IMG/VR virus record: IMGVR_UViG_3300049793_000050
Span: 1-52,541 of that record
Reading direction: 5' to 3' (one strand)
DNA: 52,541 nt
Source of the DNA: a virus
A model generated the notes under the pieces. The model was not told the DNA's origin. It did no database searches and worked only from the letters and a program-made list of their open reading frames with translations. Made by a program: the position numbers and the translations under genes. How positions within the stretch are numbered: position 1 is the first letter of the stretch; the number at the start of each line of letters is the position of its first letter. Shown in pieces: positions 8,135 through 24,649 of this stretch.

Positions 8135-9102
8135 CTATCGTTGTCTACGCCGGCCCGGCCACGGAGCCGCTGACAGTTGCCGAGGCAATGGCCCATTGCC
8201 GCATCGATTCAAGTAATCAGGAGCCGGCACCTGGCGTCGTCACTGCGGCGCTTGCGTCTCCCGCGGTTGCTGGGAGCGTTAACAACGGCGCGCATCGCTA
8301 TTTGGGTGTATTCCGCAATGCGGACGGACATACGCAGGCTGGTACGATCTCGGCAGCGGTGACGGTGGCGGCGAATGGGGCAAACGGAAAGATCGAACTT
8401 ACCGCATTGCCGGTCGGCGGTTCCCTGATGACATACCTGGACATTTACCGCACGGCAGCGGGCGGATCGACCTACCTATTTTTGGCCGCTCTCACCAACG
8501 GCACGGCTACCTACACAGATAATATCGCCGATGCCAGCTTGGGTGCCGAGGCTCCCGCTACGAACACCACAAGCGACCCGCTGCTTGGCCTGCTGATCGC
8601 TTCCGCGCGCGCGGCTGCCGAGACGGAGCTGCACCGCTCCTTGGTGACGCAGACGCGCGACATGTATCTGGACGAATTCCCGAACGACTGGATTTATGGT
8701 GCAACGTTCGACTGCAAAGGCAGCGCAATATTACTGCCGCCGCTGCAATCTGTGACCAGCATCACCTATGTCGATACGAATGGCACCACGCAGACCCTGG
8801 CGGCCGATCAGTACTTGGTCGATGCCAAGAGCCAGCCCGCTCGGATAACACCCACTTACGGCCTGACATGGCCATCAACGCGGAAGCAGAACAACGCCAT
8901 CACGATTAGGTTTGTTGATGGGTATGGCGCGGCCGCCGCAGTACCACAATGCATAAAGAACTGGATGCTGGTCCGCATCAAAACGCTGTGGGACAACCGA
9001 GAACAAATCGTGGTCGGGCCTACTGGCATGGTGCAGATTCCGCCATCGTTCATCGATTCGCTGCTGGACAGCGAGCGAGTCTACGGCAGGCTGTTTGCAT
9101 GA
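8131..9102 (+). CDS. Head-tail connector (gp6-like) with inserted Ig-like domain
   Basis: HK97 gp6-type adaptor that docks under the portal; 323 residues, much longer than the usual ~100-200. The family start EPLTVAEAMAHCRIDSS lies at residues 12-28. The expected continuation of the helical core, DPLLGLLIASARAAAETEL, appears only at residue 149. The ~120 residues between them are Gly/Ala/Thr-rich beta sequence (SVNNGAHRYLGVFRNADG, LDIYRTAAGGSTYLFLA) typical of phage Ig/Fn3-like decoration domains. The C-terminal part (VRIKTLWDNREQI) is again typical of gp6-like proteins. Confidence 0.85.
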   Translation: MTIVVYAGPATEPLTVAEAMAHCRIDSSNQEPAPGVVTAALASPAVAGSVNNGAHRYLGVFRNADGHTQAGTISAAVTVAANGANGKIELTALPVGGSLMTYLDIYRTAAGGSTYLFLAALTNGTATYTDNIADASLGAEAPATNTTSDPLLGLLIASARAAAETELHRSLVTQTRDMYLDEFPNDWIYGATFDCKGSAILLPPLQSVTSITYVDTNGTTQTLAADQYLVDAKSQPARITPTYGLTWPSTRKQNNAITIRFVDGYGAAAAVPQCIKNWMLVRIKTLWDNREQIVVGPTGMVQIPPSFIDSLLDSERVYGRLFA

Positions 9103-9416
9103 GTCGCGCGCGCGACAAGCGCATCCGCATCGAAGCGGCAGCGACGGTGCAGGACGCAAACGGAGAAATGGTGCCGGGATGGGTATTCTTCGCCGTGATG
9201 TGGGCGAACGTCTTTGATATTTCAGGCAAGGAGTATGTGGCCGCCGGCGCGACGCAGAACCCGGTGCAAACCAAGATGGATATTGCATACAAGGCAGGGA
9301 TTGTGCCGAACATGCGCGTTTTGCTCGGTGCCGATATTTACAACATAGAAGCGGCGCTCGGGCAGGACCATGTTGACCTACTTTTGATGTGTTCTCGCGG
9401 GGTCAACAATGGTTGA
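9099..9416 (+). CDS. Head-closure / head-tail joining protein
   Basis: A 105-residue small beta-barrel protein of the SPP1 gp16 / Phage_head-tail_adaptor group, which plugs the connector after packaging. ATG at 9099 is preferred because it overlaps the preceding stop (ATGA). Upstream in-frame sequence lacks similarity to this family. The segment WANVFDISGKEYVAAGATQN is characteristic, and so is the late YNIEAALGQ. It overlaps the next gene by eight bases. Confidence 0.8.
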   Translation: MSRARDKRIRIEAAATVQDANGEMVPGWVFFAVMWANVFDISGKEYVAAGATQNPVQTKMDIAYKAGIVPNMRVLLGADIYNIEAALGQDHVDLLLMCSRGVNNG

Positions 9417-9864
9417 GATTGGATCAAACCTGACCGGCGACCTATCCGGCGCGCTCGACAAGTTCGAGAAATCGATACAGGAGAAGGTGTTATTTTCCGG
9501 AGTCGCCGCGATGGCGAAAGTGATTTATGAGCAAGCCGTGGAAAATTGCCCGGAATCCGCAGAGGCCCACATATTCAGGGGCTCATCGTATGCCAAACAT
9601 GGCACTGAGTACCTGTTCTATCCCGGCGATTTGAAGAAATCAATCTACCGCGTGTATTCGCCGGAAAAGTCAACGCAAGAACTGAAGACTTACCGCATCA
9701 GCTGGAACAAAAAGATCCCTTATGGGTATTGGGTCGAATTCGGCAACTCGCGCATGCCCGCACATCCGTTTATTCGCCCCGCATTCGACCGCGTTGACGA
9801 TGCTATAGAAGCCGGGAAAGCGCGTATGGGAGAAAGAATGGTCGAGATCGCGAGTGAAACATGA
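9409..9864 (+). CDS. HK97 gp10-family tail completion protein
   Basis: A 151-residue protein acting at the head-tail junction, putatively with the tail terminator. The hallmark is the C-terminal run PYGYWVEFGNSRMPAHPF followed by IRPAFD (about residues 104-128), the conserved core of the HK97-gp10 family. It overlaps both neighbours. Start ATG at 9409. Confidence 0.88.
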   Translation: MVEIGSNLTGDLSGALDKFEKSIQEKVLFSGVAAMAKVIYEQAVENCPESAEAHIFRGSSYAKHGTEYLFYPGDLKKSIYRVYSPEKSTQELKTYRISWNKKIPYGYWVEFGNSRMPAHPFIRPAFDRVDDAIEAGKARMGERMVEIASET

Positions 9865-10217
9865 CCGTCGAAGCCACAATATTTAGCGCGCTGACCGGGC
9901 TCGTATCAGCTCGGTGCTATCCGGATGTCGCGCCGGAACTGACCGTGCGGCCGTATATCACATACCAGCAGTTCGGCGGCGTCTCTGTCAACTTCGTGGA
10001 GCAGACTACCCCATCAAAGGAAAACAGCAAATTTCAGGTGAATTGCTGGGCTGATACGCGCGCGGCGGCCAAGGCGCTCAACAAGCAGGTATCAGCAGCC
10101 TTGCGAGGTACTGCTGCGCTACAGACGACTGTTCTCGGTGAGCCTGTGGCGACGTATGAGCCAGATACAAAGCTGCGCTGCTCTCGGCAAGATTTCTCTT
10201 TTTGGTTCACATCATAA
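9861..10217 (+). CDS. Tail terminator / completion protein, DUF3168 family
   Basis: A 118-residue protein that probably caps the tail tube before head attachment. The layout is typical of DUF3168: short N-terminal helix (EATIFSALTGLVSA), YPDVAPE, PYITYQQFGG, and a final strand RQDFSFWF. It overlaps the gp10-like gene by four bases and is followed by an intrinsic terminator, closing the head-completion block. Confidence 0.82.
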   Translation: MTVEATIFSALTGLVSARCYPDVAPELTVRPYITYQQFGGVSVNFVEQTTPSKENSKFQVNCWADTRAAAKALNKQVSAALRGTAALQTTVLGEPVATYEPDTKLRCSRQDFSFWFTS

Positions 10218-10247
10218 GTTTTTAACCGCCTTCGGGCACTCCAAACC

Positions 10248-10271
10248 AGCGGCCTTCGGGTCGCTTTTTTT
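10248..10271 (+). terminator. UUCG-tetraloop terminator before tail tube gene
   Basis: AGCGGCC pairs with GGTCGCT across a TTCG loop, with one G-T wobble, followed by seven T. A 24-base exact copy is present at 22632-22655. Confidence 0.85.
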
Positions 10272-10293
10272 ATGTTCGATTGAAAGGTAAATC

Positions 10294-16474: not shown

Positions 16475-17100
16475 TGCCGATTATTGTGCTTTCGGACGTG
16501 ATCCTGTCCAACTCCGTCATTTCGGCGGGCGTGCGCGGCAAGAACATGCGCCTCAATGCGCGCGTGCCGGTCGACAGCGGCGACGAGACGATCAAGATTG
16601 TATGGTCGCGCACGATGCGCCAGTTTGAGCTCGGCACGGTCCCGATGCGAATCTCCCAATGGCAGGCGATCGAAGCCCTGCACGAGATCACCGAGGGCGG
16701 CGCTTTTGGCTTCCTGATGTCGGACCCGAAAGACAATGTTGTGTCGACTGGCGTGGCGTCGGCGGTCAGCAGCACTGTATTTCAATTGCAAAAGCGCTAT
16801 ATCGATGTTGGTTCTAGCCGTTACAAGGATCGCATCATCACGCGGCCGCGCGCTGCGGGCTTCGTTATCACCAATTCCGGCACGCCGATCTCTGGCGCGT
16901 CCTACACGCTGGACGTCACCACCGGCCGCATCACGATTCCGAGCGCGCCGACTGCGGCCAATCTTGCATGGAGCGGCCCGTTCTATGTGCCGGTTCATTT
17001 CATGGAAGACACGATCGATTGGGATTTGATCGCCGGCGGATCATCCGATCAGCGCTTACTGGCCGGCCCGTCTGTAGTAGTTCAGGAAATCCGCGAATGA
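16474..17100 (+). CDS. Distal tail protein, DUF2460 family
   Basis: A 208-residue protein of the DUF2460 family, equivalent to ORFG12 of gene transfer agents, which forms the first ring below the tail tube. Family phrases visible are SVISAGVRGKNMRLNARV, IVWSRTMRQFELGTVPM and ITEGGAFGFLMSDPKDN. The order DUF2460, DUF2163, NlpC/P60, J-like protein is a widely shared tail-tip operon in siphoviruses and GTAs. Confidence 0.88.
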   Translation: MPIIVLSDVILSNSVISAGVRGKNMRLNARVPVDSGDETIKIVWSRTMRQFELGTVPMRISQWQAIEALHEITEGGAFGFLMSDPKDNVVSTGVASAVSSTVFQLQKRYIDVGSSRYKDRIITRPRAAGFVITNSGTPISGASYTLDVTTGRITIPSAPTAANLAWSGPFYVPVHFMEDTIDWDLIAGGSSDQRLLAGPSVVVQEIRE

Positions 17101-17954
17101 CCAACGCGATATCAGCCGAACTCGACGCGTTCTATGCGGCCGGCGGCCCCACGATCGCGCGCATCGTCAAAATGACGCGCCGTGATGGGCTCGTGCTGGC
17201 CGTCACGCTCGACCACGATCAAGACATCACGTTCGAAGCAGTCACGTACAAGCCAGTGTTCGGCATGTCGCCGAGTACGGTAGAAACGAGCTCATCGCTC
17301 AATGTTGATAACCTCGACGCGAAGGGTGCATTGCTGGCGCTCGGCATCAATGCAGCCGATATCGACGCTGGCCTGTGGGACTTGTGCGACGTGCGTGTGA
17401 TGCGCGTCAACTGGGCTGATTTGACGATGGGCGCAGAGAAGATAAAGCGCGGTAATTTTGGCGAGATATCCATCGGGCGCGGCACTTTTTCCAATGAAAT
17501 CAGGGGAATCACGCAAAAGCTGGCGCAGACGCTCGGCGATGTCGTTTCGCCGTCCTGCAATGCCGACCTTGGCGATACTCGCTGCGGCATTGAAATGGTC
17601 GAAGGATCGCGCAAGTTCTCCGGCGTGGCTGTCAGCACCATCGTCGCCGCGCAGCGCGCATTCACTGCCTCGGGGCTGACACAAACCGCCGGATTTTTCG
17701 ACGGCGGAAAAGTCACCTGGACGACAGGATTAAACACGGGATTGTCGAAGGAAATCAAGACGCACACGGCCGGTGGACACATCGAATTGCAAGAGCCGAT
17801 GCCGTATTCAGTGGCTATCACGGATCAAGGCACGTTCTTCACCGGCTGCCTGAAACGCTTCACCGAAGATTGTCTCGGCAAGTTCAACAATGCACCGCGC
17901 TTCCGGGGGTTTCCTTCGATCCCCGGTCAAGATCAAATGTTCAAGGGCGTATGA
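17097..17954 (+). CDS. Tail hub protein, DUF2163 family (putative Fe-S protein)
   Basis: A 285-residue hub subunit related to GTA ORFG13 and functionally to lambda gpL. The start at 17097 (MTNAISAELDAF) overlaps the previous stop (ATGA). The C-terminal half has two cysteine pairs, SCNADLGDTRCG and GCLKRFTEDC. Cysteines in the equivalent region of GTA and lambda hub proteins are reported to bind an iron-sulfur cluster. The four are all present here, so cluster binding is likely by analogy. Confidence 0.88.
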   Translation: MTNAISAELDAFYAAGGPTIARIVKMTRRDGLVLAVTLDHDQDITFEAVTYKPVFGMSPSTVETSSSLNVDNLDAKGALLALGINAADIDAGLWDLCDVRVMRVNWADLTMGAEKIKRGNFGEISIGRGTFSNEIRGITQKLAQTLGDVVSPSCNADLGDTRCGIEMVEGSRKFSGVAVSTIVAAQRAFTASGLTQTAGFFDGGKVTWTTGLNTGLSKEIKTHTAGGHIELQEPMPYSVAITDQGTFFTGCLKRFTEDCLGKFNNAPRFRGFPSIPGQDQMFKGV

Positions 17955-18358
17955 CGACACGAGCCGAAATCACCGCCGCCGCGCTGTCAATGGTCGGCAC
18001 GCCATTCCATGCGCAAGGCCGGATGCCTGGCGTCGGGCTCGACTGCCTCGGCGTCATCGTGTGCGTGGCGAAGGCTTGCAATATCCCGCACCAAGACCGC
18101 ATCGCCTACCCGATGCGCCCGAACGGCGAACTGATGCCAGAACTGGACCGGCAATTCATGCGCATACACGGCGAGCCACAAGAGGGCGATGTCTTGCTGA
18201 TGGCGTTCGACGGCGAGCCGCACCACGTCGCCATCGTGGTCAGCGAAGGCCGGATCGTGCATGCCTACAGCACCGTGCGCAAGTGCGTCGTGCAGGCTTA
18301 TACCGATCACTGGCGCGCGAAAGTCAAAGCCGTCTATCGCTTTCCGGGAGTTGCATAA
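17951..18358 (+). CDS. Tail-tip NlpC/P60 peptidase
   Basis: A 135-residue cysteine peptidase (GTA ORFG14 / lambda gpK C-terminal type) that probably cuts peptidoglycan during DNA injection. The nucleophile is Cys32 in GLDCLGV. His92 in HHVAIVV is the catalytic base and His104 in VHAYS is a candidate third residue. ATG 17951 overlaps the previous stop, and the longer upstream frame is rejected. It abuts the hub gene with no gap. Confidence 0.9.
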   Translation: MTTRAEITAAALSMVGTPFHAQGRMPGVGLDCLGVIVCVAKACNIPHQDRIAYPMRPNGELMPELDRQFMRIHGEPQEGDVLLMAFDGEPHHVAIVVSEGRIVHAYSTVRKCVVQAYTDHWRAKVKAVYRFPGVA

Positions 18359-21300
18359 ATGTCGGGTAGCCAAGTCCTCGGAGCTGTTGCCGGGGTCGTT
18401 GTCGGCTATTTTTTCGGGCCACAAGCAGGGTTCGCGACTTATGCCGCAGTTTCCGGCGTCGGCGCCTATCTCAGCCAACCGGATAACGTCGGCCCAAAGC
18501 TGGAGGACTTACGCGTCCAGATGTCCAGCTACGGCGCAAATATCCCGTTCGAATGGGGCGTCAATCGCCACGCCGGCACGATCATGTGGCCGAAGATCCT
18601 GGATGCGGTCGAACATCAGCATGAAGAAAGCAGCAAGGGCGGGCCGAGCAATATCACCTTTACCTACACGCTATCCTGCGCCGTGCTGGTATGCGAAGGC
18701 CCGATAGCCGGTATCCGCCGCATTTGGGCGAATAAGAAAATCGTCTATGACATCTCGGCGTCCAATACCGGCGCGACGCAAGATCCGAAGATCGGCGCCG
18801 TTCGCTTCTATCTCGGCACCGAGGATCAAGAAGTCGACCCGCTGATCGAGGCGACAGACGGCGCCAGTCCGGCTTATCTCGGCTATGCGTATGTCGTGTT
18901 TGAAGATTACGACGTGACGGAGTTGAACGGGCGGCCGCCGCAGTGGGAATTCGAGGTAGTTGAGAGCGGCGCTGGCAATTACAACGAATTCATCGCCACC
19001 CAACAAGTGCTTCCTGCGACCGGCGGCTGGCGTGATATCGCTTGGAACGGATCACTCTATGTGGCGACGTGCTACGGTTCATCGCTCGTTGGCACGTCGC
19101 CCGATGGCGTGACGTGGACGCAGCGGACATTCTCCAATAACCTGAATTTCGGCATCACCGCCGGCGGCGCGATTTTCTGCATCGTCTGTTATAACTCAGG
19201 TACTGCGGCGACATCGACCGATGGCATTATCTGGACCACGCACGCGCTACCGGTGGGGGCGAGTGCATGGCACGATGTGGCATGGAATGGCACCGTGTTT
19301 TGTGCGACCGCTGCCGGCGCCAGCTGCGCGACCTCGCCTGAGGGCGCAACATGGACCGCGCAGACGATGCCAGCGGATGCCAACTGGTTGAAAATTGTCT
19401 GGAACGGCTCGGTATTCTGCGCGATCGCTCTCGATTCGCAGGTAGCAGTCTCAGTCAATGGCGTCGATTGGGCACTCGGCGTCGTGGCGCCAATCGATGC
19501 CATGTGGCGCGACATCGCATGGAATGGGACAGTATTTTGCGCGGTCGGGGATGACGGCGCGGCTGCTACATCGCCGGACGGGCTGACGTGGACAGAGCGC
19601 ACCATGCCGCCTGGCGCGAACTGGGCCGCGATCGCATGGAACGGGGATATTTTCTGCGCGCTGGCGAACGAGTCAACGATTGCGGCCACCTCGCCCGATG
19701 GCGTGACATGGACGCAACGGGTTATGCCGACCAACTCGAAGTGGATCAGCATCACCTCGGATGGATCGACCTTCGTCGGTATCGCGTCGGAATCATCCAT
19801 TGCGGTCACCATCACGTTCGATGATACGCTGTCGCCCGCGCAGGTGCCGCTCTCCACCATCGTGAGCGATATCTGCCTGCGCGCTGGCCTGACCGCTGAC
19901 GACATCGATGTAACGCAATTAACCGACCTGGTGGACGGTTATATTGTACCGAGACAGATGACCGCGCGCGCCGCGATCGAGCCATTGCAGGCGGCGTTCT
20001 ACGTTGATGCGGTCGAGTCCGACGACAAGATCAAGTTTGTTAAACGCGGTGCTTCGTCCGCTGTAACAATTCCGCAGGCCGAGCGCGCCGCGCATGAATT
20101 CGGGCAGACCATGCCGGATGCGCTGTCGATCGTGCGCGCATTCGAACTTGAGCTGCCGTATCAGTGCGATGTTGAATACCCAGATGTCGATGCGGATCAT
20201 CTGGTCGGCAATCAGTACGACCGCAGGATCACGAAAGATAGCAAGCAAAAAATCAACCTGCAACTGCCGATCGTGATGACGGCCGTCAAGGCCAAAGAGA
20301 TTGCGCGCGTGACGCTGTATCAGGCGTGGCTGAATCAGTCATACCGCTGGACGACAACAAGGAAATATGCGAAGTACGAACCGACCGATGTAGTCTCTTT
20401 GCCGACCGATGCCGCATCGTACACCGCCGTCATCACGAGTAAAAAAGAGCAGCCGAACGGCGTGATAGAGTGGGAAGGCCGCATGACGGCGGTCGATGTC
20501 TACGTGCAATCGGGGGCAGATGCAGCGCCGGCGAATTACATTCCGCAATCGGTATTCAGTCCGGATGTTACGACGCTGGTGCTGCTCGATATCCCCTTGC
20601 TGCGCGACGAAGACGACAGCGCAGGGTTTTACGTGGCGATGGGCGGTAGTGCAATACGGGTGCCGCTCGTGTTATTGCCGCTGCCAATTCCGACCCCGCC
20701 GCCAGACCCGGCACCCGGTCCGACGCCGACCTTGTATGTGGCGGCGACCGGATCCGATTCGAACCCTGGCACGCTAGCCTCACCATTCCTGACGATCGCG
20801 CACGCGGCTTCGGTCGCGGTGCCGGACGACGTGATATCGGTCGCGAGCGGCACCTATACCGGAAACCTCACGACCAGCGCCAGCGGCACGGCCGGACATC
20901 CAGTGACATACATCTCGGCCGTCAAGTATGGCGCGAAGATCATCGGCACAGGGACAGGGATTCACTGGACGGATAACGGCGACTACACCGATATCTCAGG
21001 ATTCGATGTAAGTGGCTCTGGCCGACTCGGGATATACACCACGGGCGATCACGTCACGGTTCATCACTGCTACGTGCACGACATCATGCTGACCGGCGGC
21101 GTGACCGGCGACGGCGGGGCAGGCATCCAGATGTTCGGCGCGTTCTCGACCGCGCATCACAATAAAGTCGTGCGCATCGCGGCTGGCGTGTCATCTGTTA
21201 CCGTGCAGGGTATTTACCTGCTTGGCGCGAGTGCGAATGCGTACGACAACATCGTCGGCGATATTTCGGCTTACGGTATCCACCAATGGCACGGCGGCAC

Positions 21301-21748
21301 GACTTCGACGTTCGACAGCAACACGGTATTCAACTGCGGCGGCGGCGGCATCCTGATCGGCGCCGGCGATTCCGGCATGTTGGCAGGAGGTTCTCAGCAT
21401 AATTTCATCACGAATAATATCGTCGCGAATTGCCCTGGGTACGGGGTGCGCGAATACTCCTACACCGGCACCGGCACGTCATACAACACTTATCGGAACA
21501 ATATCACTTACAACAACGCAGGCGGCAACGTGATGACGGCGACGGGCGATGTGATTGCCGATCTCTTCACCGCGAATCCGCTGTTCGTGAACTATCAGGC
21601 GGACGGCACCGGCGATTATCATCTGCAAGCGATTTCACCGGCGATCGGAGCAGGCAATGCGACGTATTCGCCAGCGACTGATTTCGATGACATCGCCAGG
21701 CCGCAGGGTGGCACGCCGGATATCGGGGCGCTCGAATATGTCGCATAA
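18359..21748 (+). CDS. J-like tail hub/fibre protein with inserted beta-propeller and C-terminal beta-helix
   Basis: An 1129-residue mosaic. Residues 1-205 are the N-terminal part of a GTA ORFG15/lambda J-like protein (SSYGANIPFEWGVNRHAG, EGPIAGIRRIWANKK). Residues about 221-490 are seven repeats of ~36 residues with consensus WxxIAWNGxxFCAxxxxxxxAxSPDGxTWT, read as a seven-bladed beta-propeller inserted in the hub. The J-like sequence resumes at LSTIVSDICLRAGLTADDID and runs to FYVAMGGSA. After a Pro-rich linker (about 20680-20735), residues ~787-1129 form a right-handed parallel beta-helix (YVAATGSDSNPGT start, PDIGALEYV end) like depolymerase or pectate-lyase-type domains. The rest of the J-like protein continues in the same frame after the stop. 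Confidence 0.85.
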   Translation: MSGSQVLGAVAGVVVGYFFGPQAGFATYAAVSGVGAYLSQPDNVGPKLEDLRVQMSSYGANIPFEWGVNRHAGTIMWPKILDAVEHQHEESSKGGPSNITFTYTLSCAVLVCEGPIAGIRRIWANKKIVYDISASNTGATQDPKIGAVRFYLGTEDQEVDPLIEATDGASPAYLGYAYVVFEDYDVTELNGRPPQWEFEVVESGAGNYNEFIATQQVLPATGGWRDIAWNGSLYVATCYGSSLVGTSPDGVTWTQRTFSNNLNFGITAGGAIFCIVCYNSGTAATSTDGIIWTTHALPVGASAWHDVAWNGTVFCATAAGASCATSPEGATWTAQTMPADANWLKIVWNGSVFCAIALDSQVAVSVNGVDWALGVVAPIDAMWRDIAWNGTVFCAVGDDGAAATSPDGLTWTERTMPPGANWAAIAWNGDIFCALANESTIAATSPDGVTWTQRVMPTNSKWISITSDGSTFVGIASESSIAVTITFDDTLSPAQVPLSTIVSDICLRAGLTADDIDVTQLTDLVDGYIVPRQMTARAAIEPLQAAFYVDAVESDDKIKFVKRGASSAVTIPQAERAAHEFGQTMPDALSIVRAFELELPYQCDVEYPDVDADHLVGNQYDRRITKDSKQKINLQLPIVMTAVKAKEIARVTLYQAWLNQSYRWTTTRKYAKYEPTDVVSLPTDAASYTAVITSKKEQPNGVIEWEGRMTAVDVYVQSGADAAPANYIPQSVFSPDVTTLVLLDIPLLRDEDDSAGFYVAMGGSAIRVPLVLLPLPIPTPPPDPAPGPTPTLYVAATGSDSNPGTLASPFLTIAHAASVAVPDDVISVASGTYTGNLTTSASGTAGHPVTYISAVKYGAKIIGTGTGIHWTDNGDYTDISGFDVSGSGRLGIYTTGDHVTVHHCYVHDIMLTGGVTGDGGAGIQMFGAFSTAHHNKVVRIAAGVSSVTVQGIYLLGASANAYDNIVGDISAYGIHQWHGGTTSTFDSNTVFNCGGGGILIGAGDSGMLAGGSQHNFITNNIVANCPGYGVREYSYTGTGTSYNTYRNNITYNNAGGNVMTATGDVIADLFTANPLFVNYQADGTGDYHLQAISPAIGAGNATYSPATDFDDIARPQGGTPDIGALEYVA

Positions 21749-21760
21749 CAAAGGGCTGCG

Positions 21761-22612
21761 ATGACTTGGAACGGCGCGACACTGTACAAAAGCGCGGATG
21801 GCGGATCGACCTATGACGCCGTGCTGTCGATGGCCAAGGCGGCCAGCATCGGCACGTCGGCCGGCGCACTCGGCGATTTCACCAGTGGGAACATCTTCGA
21901 CGAACTGAACACGGTCAGCGTCGTGATGAGCTCCGGTTCGCTGGTCAGTTATAGCGAGTTGCAGGCGCTGAACGGGGCCGGCTTGTGCGTGCTGGGCGCG
22001 GCAGGGCGGTGGGAAGTATTGCAGTACAAAACCGCGACACTGACAGGTGTCAACACGTACAAACTGAGCGGGCTATTGCGAGGTCGACGTGGGACCGAGT
22101 GGGCGCAAGGTCTGCATCAGGCTGGCGATACCTTCGTGCTGGCCAGCCTGACAGCATGGAGTCGCACCAATCCCGGCACCGCCGAGATTGGATTGGAGCG
22201 GATGTATAAGGGCGTCACATCCAAGACTTCGATTGCTGCCGCCAACGCGCAAAGCTTCGCGAATACTGCGGTCGGCCTGGAATGCTACGCGCCAGTACAG
22301 ATCGGCGGCGGAAGGAATGCGGCGAACGATGTAACGATCAACTGGATTCCGCGAACACGGATCGGGGGCGAGTGGCGCGATTACGTAGATGTGCCGCTCG
22401 GAGAAAGCGCCGAGGCATACCAGGTCGAAATTTGGAGCGGCGGGTACACGACATTGCTACGCACGATCACAGGCATATCCAGTCCGACCACAATCTACAG
22501 CGCCGCCGACCAGACAGCGGACGGCATCACTCCCGGCGATCCGGTGCATGTATCCATCTACCAACTGTCGGCAGTTGTCGGGCGCGGGTACGAGGCACGC
22601 GGCACCATTTAA
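21761..22612 (+). CDS. Detached C-terminal part of the J-like tail protein
   Basis: A 283-residue protein that matches the usual C-terminal continuation of ORFG15/J-like proteins: WNGATLYKSADGGSTYDAV, then YKLSGLLRGRRGTEWA. It lies in the same reading frame as the upstream gene, 12 bases after its TAA stop. ATG 21761 has an AAAGGG ribosome site seven bases upstream, so it is probably translated separately and may assemble with the N-terminal portion. Low-level stop read-through is an alternative. The split coincides with the beta-helix insertion. Confidence 0.8.
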   Translation: MTWNGATLYKSADGGSTYDAVLSMAKAASIGTSAGALGDFTSGNIFDELNTVSVVMSSGSLVSYSELQALNGAGLCVLGAAGRWEVLQYKTATLTGVNTYKLSGLLRGRRGTEWAQGLHQAGDTFVLASLTAWSRTNPGTAEIGLERMYKGVTSKTSIAAANAQSFANTAVGLECYAPVQIGGGRNAANDVTINWIPRTRIGGEWRDYVDVPLGESAEAYQVEIWSGGYTTLLRTITGISSPTTIYSAADQTADGITPGDPVHVSIYQLSAVVGRGYEARGTI

Positions 22613-22666: not shown

Positions 22667-24649
22667 ATGAGCAGCAGCACAACGCTAGTCGATACCGTCG
22701 CCAGTTCGCAGGCGCAAAAAGAAGTGACGTTGAACGCCGCGCTCGATGCGCTGAGTCAATCCATGATCTTCGGCAGGCGTGCGTCAACCACGTCCGGCCT
22801 GACCTGGGGCTATTACGGCGGCCGCTATACAAAGGCAGACGGCACGAACATTGCCGTCGCCAACGGTACGCTGACGCTGACGGCTTCGCTGACCAACTAT
22901 GTCGAGGTGAGCAGCCTGGGTGTAGTCAGCGTCAACACCAGCGCATTCACCGCCGGTAAAACGCCGCTTTATACCGTCGTGGCAGGCGCATCGACTGTCA
23001 CCAGCTACACCGATAACCGCGATGGCACGCAGGGGAATTACCTATCACGCGCCATCGCTGCAGCCTTGGCCGATGGCGACAAGGGCGATATCACCGTATC
23101 AGCATCCGGCGTGACCTGGACGATTGACAACGACGTCGTCACTTACGCCAAGATGCAGAACGTTTCCGCTACCGACAAACTGCTTGGCCGCAGCACCGCC
23201 GGCGCAGGCGACGTCGAGGAAATCACTTGCACCGCAGCTGGTCGTGCGCTGATTGACGACGCGGACGCTACCGCGCAACGTGCGACGCTTGGGCTGGTGA
23301 TTGGCACAAACGTTCAGGCCTATGACGCGGAACTCGCGGCGCTGGCCGGCCTGACATCGGCGGCAAACAAGGGCATCCAGTTCACCGGCAGCGGAACGGC
23401 GGCGACCTACGACCTGACGACAGCCGGCAAAGCCTTGCTCGATGATGCCGACGCCGCAGCGCAGCGCACCACGCTCGGGCTTGCCATCGGTACGAACGTG
23501 CAGGCGTACGATGCAGAACTGGCCGCAATCGCTGGCCTGACCTCGGCAGCAGATAAAGTTCCGTACTTCACCGGCAGCGGCACGGCAGCGCTGCTCACGC
23601 GCGATACCGACGTTAATCTGTCGGCCAATAGCGATACAGCGCTCGCCACGCAGAAAGCCGTCAAGGCCTACGTTGATGCGATAGCCACATCCGGCGCAAC
23701 AGACGTGATGATTTTCAAGGGCGTGATCGACTGCTCTGCGAATCCAAACTATCCCGCTGCTGACGCCGGCAATTTGCACAAAGTCAGCGTGGCCGGCAAG
23801 ATCGGTGGCGCGTCAGGTCCGAACGTTGAGGCTGGCGATACGCTGTACTGCATCACCGATTCCACGGCAAGCGGTAATCAGGCTACGGTCGGGGCGAACT
23901 GGAATATCTCGCAAGTCAACGTCGACGGCGCGGTCACTGGTCCAGCGTCGGCAACGGATAGCCATGTTGCGATGTTCAACGGATCGACCGGCAAGATTAT
24001 CAAGGATTCCGGCCTGACGCTCTCCGGCACTAATACCGGCGATCAAACGGCAGTCTCGGGCAATGCCGGCACCGCCACGGCACTAGCAAGCTCACGCAAC
24101 ATTGACGGTCAGGCGTTCGACGGCACCGCGAATATCACCGTCATCGCGCCGGGAACGCACGCAGCGACCGGCAAAACAACCCCAGTGGATGCCGACGAAA
24201 TGCCGCTTGTGGATAGCGCTGCATCGAACGTGTTGAAAAAGATCACGTGGGCCAACATCAAGGCCACGCTCAAGACCTACTTCGATACGCTCTATGCCAC
24301 CGTTTCGCAGCCGTTCGACCTGATGGCGTTCTATCCCGGTGTGCCGACCACCAGCGCCATCGTCACCCGCGTCCCGGTGGCGCGGGCCATCACATTCCCG
24401 GCGAATTTTTCCGGCAGCTATGCCAAGGCAGCGACGGCAGCGACGGCCAGCACAGCAATTGATGTGCAGAATAATGGCTCATCAATCGGGACCATCACAT
24501 TTGCCGCGGCCGGAACCATCGCTACTTTCACCACCGTAAGCGGTACGTCTAAATCGTTAGTGGCAGGGGATATTTTGTCGATTATCGCCCCAGCAAGTGC
24601 GGATGCAACAATCGCAAATATTGGATTCGTGTTGGCTGGAACGCGATAA
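22667..24649 (+). CDS. Tail fibre protein
   Basis: A 660-residue fibre. The N-terminus ([20 protein letters not shown]) is a conserved phage attachment segment for fibres that dock to the tail tip. Then follow low-complexity Ala/Thr/Gly fibre repeats including two tandem copies of a 62-residue unit ([20 protein letters not shown]). Later phrases such as LSGTNTGDQ and [19 protein letters not shown] are common in trimeric fibres. The C-terminal ~110 residues are a separate beta domain and the likely receptor-binding tip. It ends TAATG, shared with the next start. Confidence 0.85.
23240..23599 (+). repeat. Tandem 62-residue repeat inside tail fibre gene
   Basis: Unit 1 (23240-23425) and unit 2 (23426 to about 23599) encode near-identical sequence, e.g. 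[20 protein letters not shown] versus [20 protein letters not shown]. The copies have diverged at synonymous sites, so the duplication is not recent. Confidence 0.85.

Follow-up and report, generated by a model that had tools for sequence, protein, structure and literature searches.

The tail hub of the virus recorded in IMG/VR as IMGVR_UViG_3300049793_000050 is encoded by two adjacent genes, and the cut between them lies within the fibre-binding domain of the protein. The whole record (52,541 nt, hereafter the window) was analysed. By sequence comparison this is a megatron-type tail hub of a siphophage-like virus, the type represented by Rcc01698 of RcGTA. The explanation that we consider likely is an ancestral fission of the hub gene within the fibre-binding domain, with non-covalent rejoining of the two chains, and with a right-handed beta-helix that now ends the first chain as a later passenger on the new chain end.

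Chain 1 is encoded at 18359–21748 (+ strand, 1129 amino acids), where the terminal TAA occupies 21746–21748. Chain 2 (21761–22612, +, 283 amino acids) starts 12 nt past this stop with the frame unchanged. Starting at the N terminus, chain 1 comprises an adhesin-like section, a propeller-like peripheral domain and the central hub domain, and then continues as the first strands of the fibre-binding domain, a Pro-rich linker and the beta-helix, ending at the TAA. The central domain and the first two strands of the fibre-binding domain are located at 19814–20653 (+), a segment that terminates ...LLDIPLLRDEDDSAGFYVAMGGSA and is 64–69% identical to that of relatives. The Pro-rich linker (20654–20728, +) connects the hub part of chain 1 to the helix, and begins at the site where stop and start overlap in relatives (after ...MGGEA). 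The helix module with its choice-of-anchor Q end follows (20729–21745, +), and chain 2 provides the remaining fibre-binding domain. A previous sequence-only reading had described this order of hub, Pro-rich linker, helix, TAA and in-frame hub restart 12 bases on, and it is borne out by the open reading frames (ORFs) and the family searches.

The assignment as a megatron is based upon both chains. Chain 1 contains PF13550 (Phage-tail_3) at residues 532–688 (E = 5.7e-26) and also matches PHROG 1101, while PF23666 (Rcc01698_C) in chain 2 (E = 3.5e-26) passes the Pfam gathering cut-off of 27 with 91.8 bits. The PHROG 4271 profile is matched over 740–1019 in chain 1 (E = 3.7e-105) and 1022–1306 in chain 2 (E = 7.1e-66); since it resumes in chain 2 nearly where chain 1 stops, the two pieces represent neighbouring parts of a single hub. 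Sequence profiles match Rcc01698 itself (PDB 6tba, chain 6tba_8A; E = 3.1e-98) and the megatron of roseophage R4C (8gtc; E = 9.1e-65), and the homology extends over the central and fibre-binding regions. The gene order in the window (hub with PF09931, NlpC/P60 peptidase, chains 1 and 2, fibre) is that of megatron loci, being hub, peptidase and megatron in RcGTA g13–g15 (PMC7296036), with the fibre placed after the megatron in vBDshSR4C_014–017 (PMC10276861). The domains are not all contained in a single polypeptide, being divided by the stop at 21746–21748 in a split that is kept in five relatives. NF048004 (GTA_megatron) scores 254.8 bits with chain 1, where residues 4–222 are among those matched, and 185.7 bits with chain 2, matched from model position 1020. 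Neither reaches the equivalog cut-off of 800 bits, as expected because the hub is split and has a different peripheral domain, and the strict NCBI megatron name is not earned.

The cut is not confined to the window. Relatives are labelled L###, the closest being from IMG/VR. Five of these (L006, L007, L022, L023 and L108) are cut at exactly the window's junction, with no helix there. Their first chains end in YYVAMGGEA, YYVAMGGKT, YYAAMGGEA, YYVAMGEEA and FYVAMGGQL respectively, and the second has the same MTWxGA start, overlapping the chain-1 stop as ATGA and lying in the −1 frame of chain 1. A correctly spaced Shine–Dalgarno sequence (−7.5 to −16.1 kcal/mol) is contained within the final chain-1 codons (MGG). 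In a second group (type B: L025, L026, L030, L035, L037 and L103–L105) the cut lies ~20 residues upstream of the window junction; chain 1 ends ...LMELM or ...TLELM, chain 2 starts (V/M)NINMLRD, and the junction is GTGA, TGATG or an adjacent stop and start. L027 and L106/L107 are cut within the central domain, and Xanthomonas and Stenotrophomonas phages have a different cut, upstream of the central domain. At least 93 non-redundant relatives have one uninterrupted hub gene. These align continuously over the junction, where the sole insertion in the window is the helix; a lack of similarity at this point in intact relatives had been named as grounds for rejecting the split, and by this test the split was not refuted. 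Both chains look to be under purifying selection from their sequences, with ratios of nonsynonymous to synonymous substitution (dN/dS) of 0.07–0.23 where dS is finite, dS being near saturation.

The same-site split without the helix, the cuts at other sites and the intact relatives together indicate that gene fission is recurrent in this hub family, and most likely older than the helix in the window. It had been proposed earlier that the helix and its retained stop split the gene; five relatives cut at the same residue without the helix, and other clades cut elsewhere, argue against this. The accompanying suggestion of two separate hub chains is supported as a gene arrangement that is kept in relatives.

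Other junctions were seen among the relatives. The central-domain cut of L027 (5280–5360; ...FFDAVESN followed by MAGKIKFVKRG, with a TGATG overlap) is apparently in a hairpin turn. In L147 (5280–5580) the central-domain ORF ends early (...DYMGAEIA) and the hub goes on in another frame, which may be a cut or a frameshift. L041, L052 and L163 were excluded from the clear splits at the window junction (possible frameshift, 3 kb interruption and low similarity respectively). In L052 (2480–5760) the hub gene ends within the central domain, where its stop overlaps the start of a fibre-like ORF as TGATG, and ~3 kb of fibre-like ORFs precede its resumption; this would be due either to insertion of a fibre cassette or to rearrangement of the assembly.

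The domains of Rcc01698 are iris/penetration (1–46), adhesin-like (47–229), peripheral (230–744), central (745–984) and fibre-binding (985–1304); a 20-residue linker, together with contact to the peripheral domain, holds the last of these in place (PMC7296036). Chain 2 of the window aligns to residues 1025–1301, with W3 aligned with W1025. The cut is thus ~38 residues into the fibre-binding domain, so that chain 1 keeps its first strands. This end of chain 1, belonging to the chain-2 domain, has been retained, with a conservation of 0.78 compared with 0.68 for the central domain. In an AlphaFold model of the hub folded as a single read-through chain, residues 10–280 (chain 1) and 650–932 (chain 2) mostly have a predicted local distance difference test score (pLDDT) >90; the helix region is not resolved, with too few aligned sequences. 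The hub model matches the R4C megatron (8gtc_M) with Z = 24.9 and 535 residues aligned over the junction, and the cut is located in a turn between strands 272–278 and 655–660. Matches to tandem fibronectin type III proteins, taken as residue ranges, begin at model residue 247–256, suggesting that they start with the chain-1 strands. From the model and from homology, these strands probably dock non-covalently with chain 2.

We propose that in an ancestor the hub gene was cut by fission inside the fibre-binding domain. Chain 1 would then comprise the penetration, peripheral and central parts with the first two fibre-binding strands, and chain 2 the remainder, with translation of the two adjacent cistrons being coupled. 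The chain-2 domain would be completed, without a covalent link, by the conserved strands in which the hub part of chain 1 ends, and would thereby anchor the fibres. Because the cut created a free C terminus on a surface turn, a helix could be added without disturbing the hub, and this terminus may have been the landing point for a mobile helix carrying its own stop.

Residues ~790 to 1075 of chain 1 match the beta-helix families PF13229, PF22842 and DUF1565, the first two passing the Pfam gathering cut-offs (33.1 versus 25.9 bits and 26.2 versus 25.2 bits respectively), and a full NF041518 choice-of-anchor Q domain forms the end of the helix. Sequence profiles relate it to PDB entries 3vst and 5olq. 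A separate model of the helix was built from nine sequences (mean pLDDT 54, core about 70–80). Its fold matches a rhamnogalacturonan lyase (5olr, Z = 19.8) and Pel9A (1ru4, PL9; Z = 18.4), as well as PL6 lyases and tailspikes including that of HK620, the whole set having Z of 16–20. All share the right-handed beta-helix fold, with only 11–13% sequence identity between the window helix and 5olr or 1ru4. By analogy the helix probably binds or cleaves polysaccharide on the host surface. Phage tailspikes form separate trimers and do not extend a hub. A receptor-binding or depolymerase-like helix had been suggested at the junction, and the family and fold matches place it as polysaccharide-lyase or tailspike type. 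The description of the helix as complete also holds, given the full choice-of-anchor Q domain, the fit of the model to PL9 and PL6 helices and an end point shared by homologues.

These homologues are 38–44% identical to the window helix; in L103–L107 they form the end of chain 2, and in L100–L102 that of a separate propeller-like protein. All finish at the same position, each at its own stop, and the TAA at 21746–21748 (+), which is aligned with the ends of L100, L101, L103 and L106, is therefore the native end of the helix and not an error. Chain 2 has other C-terminal additions, DUF4874/DUF4832 in L037 (5929–8817) and a different NosD-like helix region in L109 (9–2750). On these sequence comparisons the helix is a C-terminal module that moves between tail proteins. 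No relative of the window helix was found among named phages, nor a nucleotide-level relative of the window. In L100–L102 (4480–7062) the helix family terminates the separate propeller-like protein with a Gly-rich linker.

The order of events was examined using trees, in which group A (window type) is fully supported as monophyletic, as is group B. The fused relatives L024 and L028 adjoin A, apart from B (support 95/92 in the chain-1 tree and 87/87 in the chain-2 tree), which makes separate cuts the best reading of A and B. In the combined tree the window is nested above L108 (support 85). The chain-1 and chain-2 trees, compared for signs of cassette swapping, show differences that lack strong support. 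Several observations count against fission followed by gain of the helix. The window branches at the base of the split clade in the chain-1 tree (96/95), and in the chain-2 tree it groups with L108 in a branching order that is not settled. The helix on chain 1 was found in one contig only, and the Shine–Dalgarno sequence in the window is only moderate (−4.4 compared with −7.5 to −16.1 kcal/mol in the five split relatives). The hub model, folded as a single chain, is no test of reassembly from separate chains, and a hub assembled from two chains is predicted from the genes. As the trees differ on the place of the window, gain of the helix after the split is favoured, as the simpler reading, and not proven.

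The basal position in the chain-1 tree, and the clean cassette formed by the window junction, would also fit an insertion of helix and stop into an intact hub gene, so causing the split, with relatives later losing the helix and keeping the split. We regard this as improbable. The helix would have to be lost precisely, in such a way that five relatives are left with an ATGA overlap and an embedded Shine–Dalgarno sequence, and lost more than once if the window is nested above L108. Moreover other clades are split without a helix at the junction.

The start of chain 2 is preceded by AAAGGG at 21750–21755 (+), a moderate Shine–Dalgarno-like site of −4.4 kcal/mol against the anti-Shine–Dalgarno sequence. 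The ATG and ribosome site claimed for chain 2 in the sequence-only reading thus exist, but the site is only moderate; its score is equalled or bettered by 26% of all ATGs in the window, and several ordinary gene starts there have similar scores. That reading had also offered read-through of the TAA, which, like any other fusion of chain 2, would give one hub protein with the helix in its middle. The stop and the ATG are indeed in frame and 12 nt apart, an arrangement expected by chance in one case in three. However, there is no RNA structure 3′ of the TAA (z = 0.70), and the −1 frame of chain 2 at the same site in relatives means that read-through cannot join the chains there, with no shared slippery sequence at the junction of split relatives seen by eye. 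We judge such a fusion to be very unlikely. An assembly chimera or a sequencing error as the source of helix or stop is likewise very unlikely. Although the window is an IMG/VR virus record and only one example of the helix on chain 1 was found, the helix family has its natural end at this stop, the helix has the codon usage of the phage (GC content at third codon positions 0.72; codon-use r = 0.89), chain 1 is open through the junction, and chain 2 has the same start codon as in relatives.

Among known systems, Rcc01698 (PDB 6tba/6teh; NF048004; PMC7296036) shares with the window the order of adhesin-like, central and fibre-binding domains, and that of hub, peptidase and megatron genes. It differs in being a single chain of 1304 residues with a helix-free junction and another peripheral domain. 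The R4C megatron (PDB 8gtc; PMC10276861) is the best structural match of the window hub. It likewise has an extra carbohydrate-binding domain, but within its peripheral domain, and is unsplit (1447 residues). Xanthomonas phage Pfeifenkraut (ON189044) and Stenotrophomonas phage Sonora (MZ326860) have a hub of this family in more than one gene, so that split hubs are already present, unremarked, in GenBank. In these the cut separates the N-terminal part from the central domain, a fibre-like gene lies between the two, and the central and C-terminal parts remain together. No description of a split megatron was found in the open-access literature, subscription papers lying outside the search. Tail-tip proteins of lambda (J), phage Chi and T1 structurally resemble hub parts of the model (Z = 15.7–17.5), distantly and with 9–13% identity.

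The peripheral domain (18974–19813, +) contains Asp-box-like repeats (TSPDGVTWT...WNGTVFCA) in the position of the RcGTA peripheral domain, which suggests a propeller fold. A family search gave no match to the TIM-barrel family of the gene transfer agent (GTA) in this domain, only a weak match to DUF6242, and there was no NCBIfam match. The corresponding domains of relatives are different propeller-like sequences (matching LVIVD and THOC3-propeller), from which it appears that the peripheral domain is swapped too. The baseplate hub gene (16968–17954, +; PF09931, PF09356) and the NlpC/P60 peptidase (17870–18358) precede chain 1. The tail fibre gene, with PHROG tail-fibre matches, is directly 3′ of chain 2 (22667–24649, +), as is that of L006 (ORF 8849–10279).

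The central hub is usually regarded as a single, indispensable chain. If the proposed fission is correct, recurrent and conserved cuts within its fibre-binding domain would mean that the joint between DNA channel and fibres need not be covalent, and phages would have a simple way of acquiring new sugar-binding or sugar-cutting domains for display. In annotation an isolated chain 2 resembles an orphan 'tail protein', and the two hub pieces are small enough for direct testing of reassembly. More tentatively, hubs of this family may be repeatedly cut in folded domains and rejoined by strand complementation, the new ends, created close to the fibre anchor, serving as landing sites for adhesin or enzyme modules, so that gene fission might drive the evolution of host recognition.

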